Source: Burkholderiales bacterium
GTDB lineage: Bacteria > Pseudomonadota > Gammaproteobacteria > Burkholderiales > Eutrophovitaceae
DNA length: 64,000 bases
NCBI GenBank assembly: GCA_035560005.1
Contig: DATMAN010000101.1
Location: 101,818-165,817, forward strand
Direction: 5' to 3'
This document shows, piece after piece, positions 6,462 through 11,996 of the stretch. The first letter of the stretch is position 1; the number at the start of each line of letters is the position of its first letter. The position numbers were made by a program, and so were the translations under genes. The notes beneath the pieces are model-generated. The model saw only the letters and a list, made by a program, of their open reading frames with translations. It did no database searches and was not told where the DNA came from.

Positions 6462-6800
6462 CTAGTACCTCGTGTAGAGCTCGCTTTTCTGCTGGGCGAA
6501 GTACGCCGCCAGGTCCCGGATCTCCTGTTCGGACAGGCCGCCAACCATGGCACCCATGATCGGATTCTTGCGCGCGCCGGACTGGTAATCGCGCAGCGCC
6601 TTGGCCAGATAGTCCGCGTGTTGCCCGCCGAGCTTGGGCGTGTCCGGCGTGTTGGGCTTGTTGCCGTCCTCGCCGTGACAGGCCGCACAAACCTGTTGCA
6701 CCTTGTCCCGCGCCGCCGCCGGATTGCCGCCGGCAAGGGAGGCGCCGGAGGCAAGAACGAACGCGCAGGCCGCCGCGCTCGCAAGCATTCTGTTCATCAT
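6462..6800 (-). CDS. small periplasmic c-type cytochrome (class I)
   Basis: 112-aa exported monohaem cytochrome. A signal peptide (residues 1-23, cleaved near SLA-GG) is followed by the haem site CAACH at 38-42. A Met-containing segment, NPIMGAMVGGL, is the probable distal ligand. I chose the ATG at 6800 because GGGGAA lies eight bases upstream; an earlier in-frame ATG at 6827 would put non-signal residues in front. It resembles half of a cytochrome c4 and lies 30 bases downstream of a paralogue of the same size. Together the two genes could supply electron acceptors for the SoxYZ-like/MBL genes upstream on the same strand. Confidence 0.9.
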   Translation of the reverse strand: MMNRMLASAAACAFVLASGASLAGGNPAAARDKVQQVCAACHGEDGNKPNTPDTPKLGGQHADYLAKALRDYQSGARKNPIMGAMVGGLSEQEIRDLAAYFAQQKSELYTRY

Positions 6801-6830
6801 GTTCGTCGTTCCCCGATGAGCGTGCATGGA

Positions 6831-7160
6831 TTACTTGGCAGGCTGCGCATAGTAGGCCGCGAGGTCCGCCATGTCCTGCTCGGTCAGGCTTGCGGCGATG
6901 CCGACCATCGAGGGATGGCTGCGCTCGCCCGACTTGTAGGCCTTCAAGGCGCTGACGATGTAGGCGGCGCTCTGTCCGCCGATCTTGGGTACCGAGTACA
7001 CCTCCGGATAGGCGGTCCGGAAACCCTTGATGCCGTGACAGCCGGCGCACATTGCGTTCTTCTGCTTCCCGGCTGCCGGGTCCCCCTGGGCCAGCAGCGG
7101 CGCAGAGGCGAGCACCGCGACCGCGGCCAGACCGGCGAGCGTCAGGCTGGAAGGTTTCAT
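6831..7160 (-). CDS. small periplasmic c-type cytochrome (class I), paralogue
   Basis: 109-aa exported monohaem cytochrome. The signal peptide is residues 1-24 (cleavage near LLA-QG), the haem motif CAGCH is at 38-42, and a likely Met ligand lies in HPSMVGIA. It is about half identical by eye to the next gene, with matching spacing from signal to haem (both C38-H42), so the pair is a tandem duplication or a split c4-type dihaem cytochrome. The ATG at 7160 is chosen because the signal peptide begins there. It is on the same strand as the SoxYZ-like carrier 80 bases upstream. Confidence 0.9.
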   Translation of the reverse strand: MKPSSLTLAGLAAVAVLASAPLLAQGDPAAGKQKNAMCAGCHGIKGFRTAYPEVYSVPKIGGQSAAYIVSALKAYKSGERSHPSMVGIAASLTEQDMADLAAYYAQPAK

Positions 7161-7239
7161 TGCTTGTTCTTTCTGAGGCTGGTTGAAAAACCGCGCAACT
7201 TTAGCGGAAGCCGCGCGCCGCGGCAACGTCGCCGCTGCC

Positions 7240-8067
7240 TCAACCTCCCGGCAGTTCCGCGCCCTCGGTCACTCGCAGCTCCTGCTCGTATACCCGATCG
7301 TGGGTGTCCTCGACCTGCACGCGCAGCCGTCCCTCTTCCCTCGGGAGGAAGTAAAAACGGAAGACGGGATTGTCCGAGAGGGAAAAATCGACCTGCGCAC
7401 TCATCACCGGCATGCCGTTGTAGGTCACGTTCACCCCGCGAACGAACTGCGGCGTCTTGCCTGGATCGAAGTCGGCGGCGAGCGGCGATTCGTTGGGATG
7501 CCTGATCTGCACCTGGATCAGGTTGGGCCGGTTCAAGCGGAAGGTATCGTCCCCCCGGAACCGCATCTTCCCGAGCAGCGCGGCGGGGACGGCGTTCTTG
7601 CCCATGGGCGCCGAGCAACCACCCGCCGCCTTGACCCAGCGCTGCGCCATGTACAGGCGCCCGTCGTTCATCTCCGCCACGGCGCGCACGAAGCTGTAGT
7701 CTTCGAAGCGCAGCCGCGTCTCCACCTTCACGCGCCCGCTCTCCGGCGTGAAATGGAAAATCCCGGCCGTGGGCGACGGGTTGCGCTCCACGATCAGATA
7801 GACCGTCTTGATGTATTCCTGGGGCGCCTGATCGATCAGCGCGTTGACCATTACGGGCACGGTCGAGGCGTCGTCGGCACGGGTGTTCAGGTACACGGCG
7901 AGCACTGGTCGGTCGTCCGGATTGAGGGTGCGATCTCCGAACAGCAGCGTGCGGATCGTCGGCCAGTAAGGGCTCTTGTCCGGATCGGGCTCGGCCTTCT
8001 CGTTGGCAGACACCCCGGCCGAGGCCAGGGCGAGGACTGCGGCCAGGCAGCGTAGCGTGCTCCCCAT
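7240..8067 (-). CDS. quinoprotein-associated SoxYZ-like carrier protein
   Basis: 275-aa periplasmic protein with a signal peptide (about residues 1-21, cleavage near VSA-NE). The N-terminal part resembles SoxY and ends near a single cysteine in GGCSAP (about residue 151), in place of the SoxY swinging-arm GGCGG. The C-terminal ~100 residues resemble SoxZ (immunoglobulin-like, with NLIQVQIRHP and a late FRFYFLP strand). Fusions of this type occur with PQQ-dependent dehydrogenases rather than thiosulfate oxidation and are thought to act as a carrier; substrate unknown. The ATG at 8067 follows AGAGG and starts the signal peptide. Neighbours are two cytochromes and two MBL-fold proteins, but no sox or xox gene is in view. 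Confidence 0.85.
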   Translation of the reverse strand: MGSTLRCLAAVLALASAGVSANEKAEPDPDKSPYWPTIRTLLFGDRTLNPDDRPVLAVYLNTRADDASTVPVMVNALIDQAPQEYIKTVYLIVERNPSPTAGIFHFTPESGRVKVETRLRFEDYSFVRAVAEMNDGRLYMAQRWVKAAGGCSAPMGKNAVPAALLGKMRFRGDDTFRLNRPNLIQVQIRHPNESPLAADFDPGKTPQFVRGVNVTYNGMPVMSAQVDFSLSDNPVFRFYFLPREEGRLRVQVEDTHDRVYEQELRVTEGAELPGG

Positions 8068-8114
8068 ACTGCGACCTCTCGATTCCTTTCCACCCATTGC
8101 GCGGCGAGTATAGC

Positions 8115-9038
8115 TCACTCCCACTCGAGCTCCGTGTAGGCCGTGGTGACGTTGCGCCGGTGATAGGTCTCGAAATTGACCCACTTGCCCCTTTCGGAGA
8201 GTCCCACTTCATCGAGAGCCTGCATCAACGTGCGGCCGCGTCTGATCGCCGCGCGCGTCTCCCCGAGAATCACGCCGAAGTAGTACTCCTGCGGGTCGAG
8301 CGCCGCCGGCCAGGAGGTGCGCGTGCGGCCGTGTCCCGGCACGACATGCGCGGCAACGACGGCGCGAAGCTCGCGCATGACCGCAAGGAATCCCGTGACG
8401 TTCGAATCCAGCACCGGCGTGTGATCGACGAACAGCAGATCGCCGAGCCACAGCGTCTTCGTGCTTCGATCGAAGACCGTGAGGTCGTTGTCGGTGTGCG
8501 CCGGCGCCCAGGCCCTGATCTCCACCGTGCGCCCGCCGAGGTCGAGCACGAGCGTCTGAGCGGTTCCCACGGTGCGCGTCGGCGCAACCGCCTCCGAACC
8601 GGTCGCGGCATCCCCGAGATCGCGCCTGAGCGCGTTGAGATCCGTGCGCGCCCGGGCGGCAAGCCGGCGCGGCAGGTTTTCGTGTCCGATCACTTCCGGC
8701 CGGTCCGCGCGAAACGCCGCCGCCCCGAAGTAGTGGTCGGGATGCGCGTGGGTGATGACCAGATGGCACACCGGCGTGCGCGTGACGCCTGCGATCGCCG
8801 CGCGCAGCCGCTCGCCCAGGGCGTGCGAGCCGCCCGAGTCGATCACCAGCACGCAGCGCTCGCCGACGATGAAGCCGATGTTGGCGTTGTCGCCAAGGTT
8901 GGCGGCCGAACGTTCCTCGTGCGAGCCGTAGTGGACGAAGTTTCCCGGTGCGATCTCGCTCAGCGCCAGGGGTTCCTGGGCGCGGGTCGACGCCGCGAAT
9001 GCGGCGAGCCACAACGCGGCGGCCAGAGAATGTCTCAC
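8115..9038 (-). CDS. quinoprotein relay system zinc metallohydrolase, MBL fold, intact active site
   Basis: 307-aa exported metallo-beta-lactamase-fold hydrolase related to SoxH. Zinc-ligand motifs are complete: THAHPDH, GHE, GDLLF with the bridging Asp, and VPGHGR. The signal peptide (RHSLAAALWLAAFAAS, cleavage near TRA-QE) begins right at the GTG at 9038, which I take as the start; an ATG at 9107 would add 23 non-signal residues. The substrate is unknown; the family occurs with SoxYZ-like carriers and PQQ enzymes, perhaps releasing a product from the carrier cysteine. It is divergent from a paralogue whose zinc site is destroyed. Confidence 0.85.
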   Translation of the reverse strand: MRHSLAAALWLAAFAASTRAQEPLALSEIAPGNFVHYGSHEERSAANLGDNANIGFIVGERCVLVIDSGGSHALGERLRAAIAGVTRTPVCHLVITHAHPDHYFGAAAFRADRPEVIGHENLPRRLAARARTDLNALRRDLGDAATGSEAVAPTRTVGTAQTLVLDLGGRTVEIRAWAPAHTDNDLTVFDRSTKTLWLGDLLFVDHTPVLDSNVTGFLAVMRELRAVVAAHVVPGHGRTRTSWPAALDPQEYYFGVILGETRAAIRRGRTLMQALDEVGLSERGKWVNFETYHRRNVTTAYTELEWE

Positions 9039-9149
9039 GGTTTCGCGATCCAGGGGCGGGGGCGATCGATGGTAGCAGACCGGCCAGACGGTTGCGAAGG
9101 CGGACACGCTCGGGTAGCGTTCGCCGTTGCGCGGCCTTACCGATCGTCG

Positions 9150-10112
9150 ATGTCCGGCTCGATGCGCTTTCGCGCCTTGCTGTTCGTCTTGCCCTTTGCC
9201 TTAGCGTCACGCGCCGCCGGCGCGCTCGAAGCGCTGCAAGTCGCACCGGGGGTCTACGCGGTGGCCGGGGCGAGCGGCACTCCCGAGCCGCACAATCGCG
9301 GCGACGTGGCCAACGCCGGATTCATCGTCGGAGCCACCGGCGTGGTCGTGATCGACACCGGGACTTCGATGCGGTTCGGGCGCGATCTCCTGCGCGCCAT
9401 TCGCGCCGTGACCGATCGTCCGGTCGCGCTCGTGATCCTGACGCACGCCGATCAGGAGTTCGTGTTCGGCGCCGGCGCTTTCGCGGACGCGGGCGCCGAG
9501 ATCTCCGCACACCGCGAAACCATCGCGCTGATGAGCGCGCGCTGCGGGCACTGCCTGGACCGGCTCAGGCCGATTCTCGGGCACGACCTGGACGAGACGC
9601 GGCTGGTGTTGCCGACGCGGGCCTTCGAGACGTCGCTTCGGCTGCCAGCCGGCGGCACGCTCATCGATGTCCTGCACTTCGGATGGGCCTCCACGCCCGG
9701 AGACGTCGTGGTGTTTCATCCGCCCAGCGGCGTTGCGTTCGCCGGCGGGATGGTGGTGTCCGGCCACATCCCCCGGATTCGCGACTGCGACTTCCGCGGC
9801 TGGCAGAGCGCGTTGGCGCGACTGCGGGCCCTGCCGATCCGCCGCATCGTTCCGGGCTTCGGCCCGGTCGGCGGACCCGAGGCGATCGATGCCACAGCCG
9901 GCTATCTGCGAGCACTGGACGATCGCGTCCAGGCCCTGTATCGCGCCGGCGTCAGCCTGCTCGACGCGCCCGCGCAGTCCGATCTGGCTGAATATCGGGG
10001 CTGGGCCGCCTATGAGGCGCACCATCGCCAGAACGCCCTGCACCGCTACCTGCAACTGGAAATCGAGGATCTGGGCGGCGATCCGCGTTCCACGGCGCTG
10101 CCCGGGCGCTGA
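9150..10112 (+). CDS. quinoprotein relay-type MBL-fold paralogue with degenerate zinc site
   Basis: 320-aa exported MBL-fold protein (signal peptide about residues 1-25, cleavage near AGA-LE; start ATG 9150 or 9162, neither with a clear ribosome-binding site). The overall family pattern is retained (PHNRGDVANAGFIVG, VVVIDTG, a C-terminal YEAHHRQNALHRYLQLE). The metal ligands are not: the expected HxHxDH reads HADQEF, the bridging-Asp position reads GGMVV rather than GDxxF, and VPGHG reads VPGFG. It also carries an extra CGHC. The direct reading is that it cannot bind two zinc ions in the usual way. It may be a pseudoenzyme, a scaffold, or a different metalloprotein. It lies divergent to the intact paralogue, 111 bases apart. 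Confidence 0.8.
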   Translation: MSGSMRFRALLFVLPFALASRAAGALEALQVAPGVYAVAGASGTPEPHNRGDVANAGFIVGATGVVVIDTGTSMRFGRDLLRAIRAVTDRPVALVILTHADQEFVFGAGAFADAGAEISAHRETIALMSARCGHCLDRLRPILGHDLDETRLVLPTRAFETSLRLPAGGTLIDVLHFGWASTPGDVVVFHPPSGVAFAGGMVVSGHIPRIRDCDFRGWQSALARLRALPIRRIVPGFGPVGGPEAIDATAGYLRALDDRVQALYRAGVSLLDAPAQSDLAEYRGWAAYEAHHRQNALHRYLQLEIEDLGGDPRSTALPGR

Positions 10113-10180: not shown

Positions 10181-10735
10181 ATGGGCCACCGCCTCACCCG
10201 CATCTACACACGCACCGGAGATGCCGGCACGACAGGACTGGGAGACGGTTCGCGCGTGGCCAAGGACAGCGCCCGCATCGAGGCCATCGGCGCGGTCGAC
10301 GAGCTGAACAGCCACATCGGCGTGCTGCGGGCCGAAGCCCTGCCCGACGCAGTCGACCAGTGCCTGCTGCGCATCCAGCACGAGCTGTTCGATCTGGGCG
10401 GGGAACTCAGCATCCCGGGCCACGCGGCGATCAGCGAGGCGCATATCGCACGCCTGGAGGCGTTGCTCGACGGCTTCAACGCCGAACTCCCGCCGCTCAA
10501 GGAATTCATTCTGCCGGGCGGCAGCCGCGCCACGGCGCTGTGCCATGTGGCGCGCAGCGTCTGCCGGCGCGCCGAGCGCCGCGTCGTGAGCCTGGCAGCG
10601 GCCGAACAGGTTTCGCCGCTCGCCCAGCGCTATCTGAACCGGCTCTCCGACCTGCTGTTCGTGCTGTGCCGGGTCATCAACCGCGCTCAAGGCGGCGTCG
10701 ACCTCTACTGGCGCAGACAGCCCGGCGGGAACTGA
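10181..10735 (+). CDS. pduO: cob(I)alamin adenosyltransferase, PduO type
   Basis: 184-aa ATP:corrinoid adenosyltransferase that makes coenzyme B12 from cob(I)alamin. The family pattern is clear: N-terminal ATP-binding IYTRTGDAGTTGLGDGSR, then VDELNSHIG, and C-terminal RRAERRVV followed by YLNRLSDLLFVLCR. Length is normal. The ATG is preceded by AGAAAG. The stop is eight bases before an ECF sigma-factor gene on the same strand, so the three genes to 11996 look like one operon. A BtuF-like corrinoid-binding protein lies just beyond on the other strand, which gives a small B12-related cluster. No B12-dependent enzyme is in the window. Confidence 0.95.
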   Translation: MGHRLTRIYTRTGDAGTTGLGDGSRVAKDSARIEAIGAVDELNSHIGVLRAEALPDAVDQCLLRIQHELFDLGGELSIPGHAAISEAHIARLEALLDGFNAELPPLKEFILPGGSRATALCHVARSVCRRAERRVVSLAAAEQVSPLAQRYLNRLSDLLFVLCRVINRAQGGVDLYWRRQPGGN

Positions 10736-10743
10736 TCTTGCCG

Positions 10744-11298
10744 ATGGACGCGGATGCGCTCTCCCGGCTGCTCGCGCGCTGCGCGCTCAGGGACCAGCGC
10801 GCCTTCGGGGAGCTGTACCGGCTGACCGCGCCAAAACTGTTCGCGGTGGCCCTGCGTATAACCAGACGGAAGGCCTGGGCCGAAGAGATCCTGCAGGAAA
10901 GTTTCGTGAACATCTGGCACCACGCGCAGGGCTACGACGCCGCCAAGAGCGCGCCGATGACCTGGATGACGGCGGTCGTGCGCAACCGCGCGCTGGACTG
11001 GCTGCGCCGGCCGCGCGAGTCCGAGCTGGGCGAGGTGCACGAGGACTTCCTGAACTCGGTCGCCGACGAGACGCCCGGGCCCGACGAATTGCTGCGCCAG
11101 TCGGCCGACGCTGCCCGGCTCGCGGATTGCATGCGTCAGCTCAGCGAAGAGCAGCAGCGCACGATCACGCTCGCCTTCTACTACGGACTGTCGCACGGCG
11201 AGCTGGCGCGCAAGCTCGAGCGCCCGCTGGGCACCGTCAAGACCTGGATTCGGCGCGGCCTGGAACGGCTTCGCGGCTGCCTGGACAACACCGGATGA
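10744..11298 (+). CDS. ECF RNA polymerase sigma factor
   Basis: 184-aa sigma-70 family factor. Region 2 spans about residues 10-85 (AFGELYRLTAPKLFAVALRI, then AEEILQESFVNIW and WMTAVVRNRALDWLRR). Region 4 is about residues 125-180 (LSEEQQRTITLAFYYGLSHG, then LGTVKTWIRRGLERLR). It resembles the SigK/RpoE-like group controlled by RskA-type anti-sigma factors. It starts eight bases after the adenosyltransferase stop, and its own stop overlaps the start of the anti-sigma gene by four bases (ATGA). Target promoters are unknown. That a cobalamin enzyme is co-transcribed with it is unusual. Confidence 0.92.
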   Translation: MDADALSRLLARCALRDQRAFGELYRLTAPKLFAVALRITRRKAWAEEILQESFVNIWHHAQGYDAAKSAPMTWMTAVVRNRALDWLRRPRESELGEVHEDFLNSVADETPGPDELLRQSADAARLADCMRQLSEEQQRTITLAFYYGLSHGELARKLERPLGTVKTWIRRGLERLRGCLDNTG

Positions 11299-11996
11299 GG
11301 CTCGACAACGACAGACTGCGCCAGGCTCTGGCGGCTGAATACGTGCTGGGCACGTTGCCGCCGCGCGCACGCCGTCGCTTCCAATGGCACCTGCGGCGCG
11401 ATCCGGGGTTGCGGCGCCTGGTCGGGCAGTGGGAACGGCGCCTGACGCCGCTGGCCGACGGGCTGCCGCCGCTCGCGCCGCCGCGCCGCGTGTGGAGTGC
11501 GATCGAGCAGCGTCTGTTCGGCGCGCCGCGCGCGCGTGTCTGGCGCAGCGTGGCCTTCTGGCGCCTGGCTGCGGCTGCGGCGGGCGTGGCCGCGATCGCC
11601 CTCGCCGTTTGGCTCGCCCCGCCCGAGGACATCGCGCCCCCGGAGCGCATGGTCACGGTCATGACCGACATTCAGACCCAGAGCCCGGCCATGACCGTGT
11701 CCTGGGATGCGGGTCGTCCCGGACAGCGGCTGCTGCGCATCCGGGTGATCGGGCATGCGGAGATGGCACCGGACACCGCCTGGGAGCTGTGGATGCTGCC
11801 GGGTGGAGACAAGCCACCGGTGTCGCTCGGGCTCGTCTCCACGCACGAGACCCAGACGCTGACCGTACCGCGGGAACTGGCCGCGCGCCTGGACCAGGCT
11901 TGGGGACTGGCGATGAGCGTGGAACCGCGCGGCGGTTCACCCACCGGGCTGCCCACCGGTCCGGTGCTCTACAAGGGCCAGTGCGTGCGCATCTGA
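11295..11996 (+). CDS. RskA-like membrane anti-sigma factor
   Basis: 233-aa single-pass membrane protein. The N-terminal cytoplasmic part (YVLGTLPPRARRRFQWHLRR, then VWSAIEQRLFG) is the usual sigma-binding region. One membrane segment (about residues 92-112) is followed by a periplasmic domain of ~120 residues with WELWMLPGG and QAWGLAMSVEPRGGSPTG, the RskA C-terminal pattern. There is no zinc-binding HxxxCxxC motif. The start overlaps the sigma gene (ATGA), so synthesis of the two is coupled. Release of sigma presumably follows regulated proteolysis; no protease gene is adjacent. Confidence 0.9.
   Translation: MRLDNDRLRQALAAEYVLGTLPPRARRRFQWHLRRDPGLRRLVGQWERRLTPLADGLPPLAPPRRVWSAIEQRLFGAPRARVWRSVAFWRLAAAAAGVAAIALAVWLAPPEDIAPPERMVTVMTDIQTQSPAMTVSWDAGRPGQRLLRIRVIGHAEMAPDTAWELWMLPGGDKPPVSLGLVSTHETQTLTVPRELAARLDQAWGLAMSVEPRGGSPTGLPTGPVLYKGQCVRI

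Follow-up and report, generated by a model that had tools for sequence, protein, structure and literature searches.

The SoxYZ-like, SoxH-like and rhodanese proteins that accompany PQQ dehydrogenases with adjacent cysteines have been proposed to take part in disulfide formation, to stabilise the cofactor or to shield PQQ from sulfur nucleophiles; these proposals are unproven, as is the function of the SoxYZ-like/SoxH-like module that goes with PQQ and lanthanide dehydrogenases (PMC12997753). Cooperation between a zinc-bearing and a zinc-less paralogue of the metallo-beta-lactamase (MBL) fold is known from INTS9/INTS11 and CPSF100/CPSF73 (PMC7980224). These are eukaryotic RNA nucleases with beta-CASP domains. 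In a stretch of 64,000 nucleotides from a Burkholderiales bacterium, here called the window, the genes likewise specify an intact and a ligand-less MBL-fold protein, the latter being distinguished, unlike the eukaryotic proteins, by an invariant CxxC motif.

The two genes form a divergent pair and both reading frames are clean. Protein A, the ligand-less and putatively exported member, is encoded on the plus strand at 9150-10112 (with an ATG at 9150 or 9162), and protein B on the minus strand at 8115-9038, where 9038 is its probable start. On the minus strand B is followed by a fused SoxYZ-like carrier (7240-8067) and then by two small c-type cytochromes (6831-7226 and 6462-6827; PF00034, 30.3 and 39 bits, cut-off 21.3). 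The carrier reading frame spans 7240-8184, and its signal peptide suggests a start near 8067. Both its score against TIGR04557 (205.9 bits, cut-off 140) and its arm cysteine, in the motif GGCSAP, identify it as a quinoprotein dehydrogenase-associated SoxYZ-like carrier. Downstream of A, at 10181-11996, lie genes for a cob(I)alamin adenosyltransferase, an ECF sigma factor and an RskA-type anti-sigma factor; genes of similar size are found 3' of A at two further loci (L154 and L160), and this order may be conserved and regulatory.

Protein B belongs to the type 2 quinoprotein relay system zinc metallohydrolases (TIGR04559, 358.4 bits, cut-off 280). It has the motifs THAHPDH, GHE, AHT, GDLLF and VPGHG, and the complete set of seven zinc ligands (HHDHHDH) bears out the original prediction that the minus-strand protein keeps its zinc motifs. 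All 30 type 2 proteins sampled likewise have seven of seven ligands. Since they hold the canonical ligands, the possibility that the true ligands of type 2 proteins lie at other positions can be dismissed. The AlphaFold2 (AF2) model of B has a pLDDT of 92.8. In the type 2 proteins near the window two further residues, C62 and C91 on neighbouring strands, are invariant and perhaps form a disulfide; they are absent from A.

Protein A resembles type 2 proteins in its fold, its export signal, its C-terminal N/E motif region and its genetic module, and type 1 proteins (TIGR04558) in being a related MBL-fold protein of PQQ systems. It is a member of the metallo-beta-lactamase superfamily (PF00753, 62.8 bits, cut-off 22.7), but it scores 205.1 bits against TIGR04559 (cut-off 280) and 180.6 bits against TIGR04558 (cut-off 300), and other members of its clade reach at most 234.7 bits against the latter. 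Because it falls below both curated cut-offs, A is neither a type 1 nor a type 2 metallohydrolase, and a reading of the pair as type 1 plus type 2 does not hold: B alone is of type 2, and A comes from a third clade. At the positions of B's motifs A has THADQEF (residues 94-100, positions 9441-9461, the former HxHxDH), AHRE, AST, GGMVV and VPGFG (residues 230-234, positions 9849-9863, the former VPGHG), as placed by alignment, and it also has the sequence CGHC. Of the seven canonical ligands (HxHxDH, His196, Asp221 and His263) only the first His of HxHxDH is left, so that A does not qualify as a zinc metallohydrolase, and the original prediction that every ligand motif had been lost is right for six of the seven. 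The same discrepancy affects a public record, as the A protein of Azoarcus sp. KH32C (WP_015451909.1) is annotated as a metallo-hydrolase although the zinc site is absent; our analysis corrects this annotation.

The loss extends to the whole clade and goes well beyond what chance would produce. In a set of 44 non-redundant A proteins with a mean pairwise identity of 38% none has a complete zinc site and each retains between zero and four of the seven ligands. Within HxHxDH the first His is kept in 36 proteins, the second in 7, the Asp in 3 and the last His in none, its place being taken by Phe in 34 of 44; His196 is kept in 7, Asp221 in 9 and His263 in 10. Both cysteines of the motif, C128 and C131 in C128-G-H-C131 (9543-9554 on the plus strand, numbered from the ATG at 9162), are present in 44 of 44, as two of only ten invariant positions. 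The set was collected by profile score, with CxxC used for the weaker matches, and the phylogeny serves as a check on that choice. The new cysteines pointed out by the original prediction are therefore conserved, and A lacks the two that are invariant in type 2 proteins.

A haem site is one conceivable explanation for such a motif. CxxC is followed by L, I, Y, R or F and never by H, and the lack of CXXCH from every A protein excludes haem c, so that the haem chemistry considered in the original prediction can be set aside. A different metal site, made of the CxxC and a further residue such as His117, either within one molecule or shared in a dimer, would account for the two invariant cysteines, and His117 is indeed found in 40 of the 44 A proteins. 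It is also found, however, in 28 of 30 zinc-loaded B proteins, so that its origin is separate from that of the cysteines in A. A search for a full alternative ligand set found no other H, C or D that became invariant alongside the cysteines, and apart from E300 and positions shared with B there is no further invariant H, C, D or E. The absence of an additional ligand invariant together with the cysteines makes an alternative metal site less likely, and we regard it as improbable.

In a phylogenetic analysis a branch with SH-aLRT support of 98 separates all A proteins from types 1 and 2, and support is 96 after removal of the ligand-motif and CxxC columns; the trees are quick maximum-likelihood trees without bootstrap, and some A sequences have long branches. 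On these data the A proteins make up a third, unnamed clade of SoxH-like proteins with the MBL fold and a predicted export signal, in which the zinc site has been lost and CxxC is invariant. The A members of three families (f2, f26 and f36) retain HPHPEN and the equivalent of His196, which suggests stepwise erosion of the zinc site, and this seems to have taken place in a lineage where the CxxC was already present. The clade was seen only in the order of the window. In the window's own family A-like proteins are found in 14 of 17 genomes, with B beside them on the opposite strand in 13 of the 14, and within the order roughly twelve families give strong matches to the A profile. Outside the order no A members were seen in 369 genomes of the class and 398 of the phylum, where the best matches were read residue by residue. 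All named records are from Burkholderiales: Azoarcus sp. KH32C, Caballeronia sp. M1242 and 14 metagenome-assembled genomes, most of which are labelled Betaproteobacteria or Burkholderiales.

The loss of many ligand positions, which ones varying among members, might also be expected of a decaying copy. Pairwise dN/dS between close A proteins is 0.13-0.23, and 0.07-0.16 for B; A is thus under purifying selection, with a somewhat weaker constraint than B. These values exclude a decaying gene, as the original prediction had held, and the frames are open in dozens of genomes. We therefore consider it extremely improbable that A is a degenerating copy or that its CxxC contributes to a haem c site. 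A protein whose catalytic residues are gone under purifying selection is a predicted pseudoenzyme, and A fits this description.

What such a protein does is suggested in part by its predicted structure. The AF2 model of A, built from 15 sequences, has a pLDDT of 87.2, a pTM of 0.86 and an MBL fold. The closest solved folds are 8d2z, an MBL-fold protein of Burkholderia cenocepacia (Z 33.9, 24% identity), and 6uxu, the hydrolytic chlorothalonil dehalogenase (Z 31.3, 21% identity). In the model C128 opens a helix (residues 128-145) one residue past the helix 118-126, whereas in B a single helix (122-145) runs unbroken through this region. In thiol-disulfide proteins the CxxC is likewise placed at the start of a helix, and the CxxC of A may be redox-active. 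Two observations count against this reading, namely that the two residues enclosed by the cysteines vary and that A is modelled with the MBL fold and not the thioredoxin fold. A correspondence of the CxxC with a second-shell position of NDM-1 found no support in the literature retrieved and is not used here.

Alternatively, A may be a scaffold or regulatory pseudoenzyme that pairs with B or holds the carrier, its CxxC being a structural disulfide. The periplasm favours disulfides, and the conserved divergent arrangement of A and B is consistent with this reading. It also has a precedent in INTS9, which lacks zinc ligands and dimerises with its active paralogue INTS11 (PMC7980224). Against it, some A genes are not beside B, and the cysteines of A have outlasted all the ligands and nearly all surface residues and lie at a helix start in the model, although neither of these last two points is decisive. 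We consider this scaffold role rather unlikely, but the most serious of the alternatives.

The genomic context agrees with a function in the quinoprotein module. At 13 of 14 named loci the genes for SoxYZ and B are divergent from A, and the fourteenth is a short contig that shows B and A alone. In Azoarcus sp. KH32C the row consists of a PQQ methanol/ethanol dehydrogenase, a cytochrome c, an XoxJ-type binding protein, two hypothetical proteins, B, SoxYZ and A, that is, a xoxF-xoxG-xoxJ-B-SoxYZ-A operon, and it adjoins methanopterin-dependent C1 genes. Comparable clusters are present in Caballeronia sp. M1242 (L144) and in families f10, f17, f48 and f49 (L174, L172, L173 and L202). Two exported-looking proteins of about 240 and 116 amino acids, with no match in Pfam or NCBIfam, recur beside xoxF/xoxJ (L145, 11064-12145, with matches in L144, L172, L173, L174, L199 and L202). 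Basal A genes adjoin a TonB-like gene, a two-component system (L168) and pqqB, pqqC and pqqE, the last three being checked by profile in L169 and recognised by matching gene sizes and motifs in L170 and L171. In the window's genome dehydrogenases with the CC motif are present away from A.

In a sample of 150 genomes of the order a full-length SoxYZ-like carrier accompanies A in 25 of 25 genomes, and A is found in none of the 116 genomes that lack a full carrier (Fisher p 3e-21, uncorrected for shared ancestry). Nine genomes have the carrier and not A, which we count against a thiol/disulfide partnership. The active/pseudoenzyme pair acting with the SoxYZ-like carrier that the original prediction envisaged is supported in so far as an intact and a ligand-less protein form a pair that is genetically linked to the carrier. 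The carriers near A have a single arm cysteine in the motif GGC(S/T)AP. Among genomes without A, carriers of family f25 (L183, L184 and L190) share the arm GGCGG with true SoxY, and some others (L185 and L189) have GGCSAP, as near A. To see whether A replaces thioredoxin or rhodanese genes, these were sought near SoxYZ with single E. coli queries, and none was found in genomes with or without A.

The loss of the ligands, the invariant CxxC, the single clade, the purifying selection and the genetic linkage of A are shown by the sequences, and the MBL fold is predicted. Taken as a set, the carrier with its arm cysteine, the zinc hydrolase, the c-type cytochromes and the zinc-less CxxC protein are more readily understood as a thiol relay than as a module with a second hydrolase, and an invariant CxxC in a clade-wide partner without zinc points to thiol chemistry in the SoxYZ-like/SoxH-like module, of which A is a genuine and hitherto unnamed component. 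We therefore favour, at about even odds, a reading of A as a periplasmic protein that needs no zinc and serves the carrier and B as a thiol/disulfide partner in the maturation or protection of PQQ dehydrogenases. The signal peptide suggests that A would be exported to the periplasm, where it would act through its CxxC and not by zinc hydrolysis. The CxxC may exchange thiol and disulfide with the arm cysteine (GGCSAP) of the SoxYZ-like carrier and with the zinc enzyme B, its presumed partners, and this would help to mature or protect the PQQ-dependent methanol/alcohol dehydrogenases, the putative substrate being, for example, their adjacent-cysteine disulfide or sulfur adducts. The wider proposal, that a zinc-hydrolase MBL fold became a CxxC thiol-disulfide protein for the SoxYZ-like carrier and the PQQ/lanthanide dehydrogenases, once within the Burkholderiales, is more tentative still and may well prove wrong. 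We know of no other redox use of the MBL fold.

Changes in the zinc site are also seen elsewhere in the superfamily. The type 1 proteins sampled have, for the most part, complete ligand sets, and the CxxC of A occurs in none of them. Four proteins above the TIGR04558 cut-off (L134, L135, L136 and L137, in families f31 and f49) have the ligands NHDYHGH where HHDHHDH is usual, which is another, partial alteration of the site and comes without CxxC. In a further SoxH-like clade (L089, L090, L091, L098, L100, L104 and L114) HxHxDH is replaced by TGGQDHRW, VNSQNHYW or ENGQGHAA, and Asp221 and His263 are retained.
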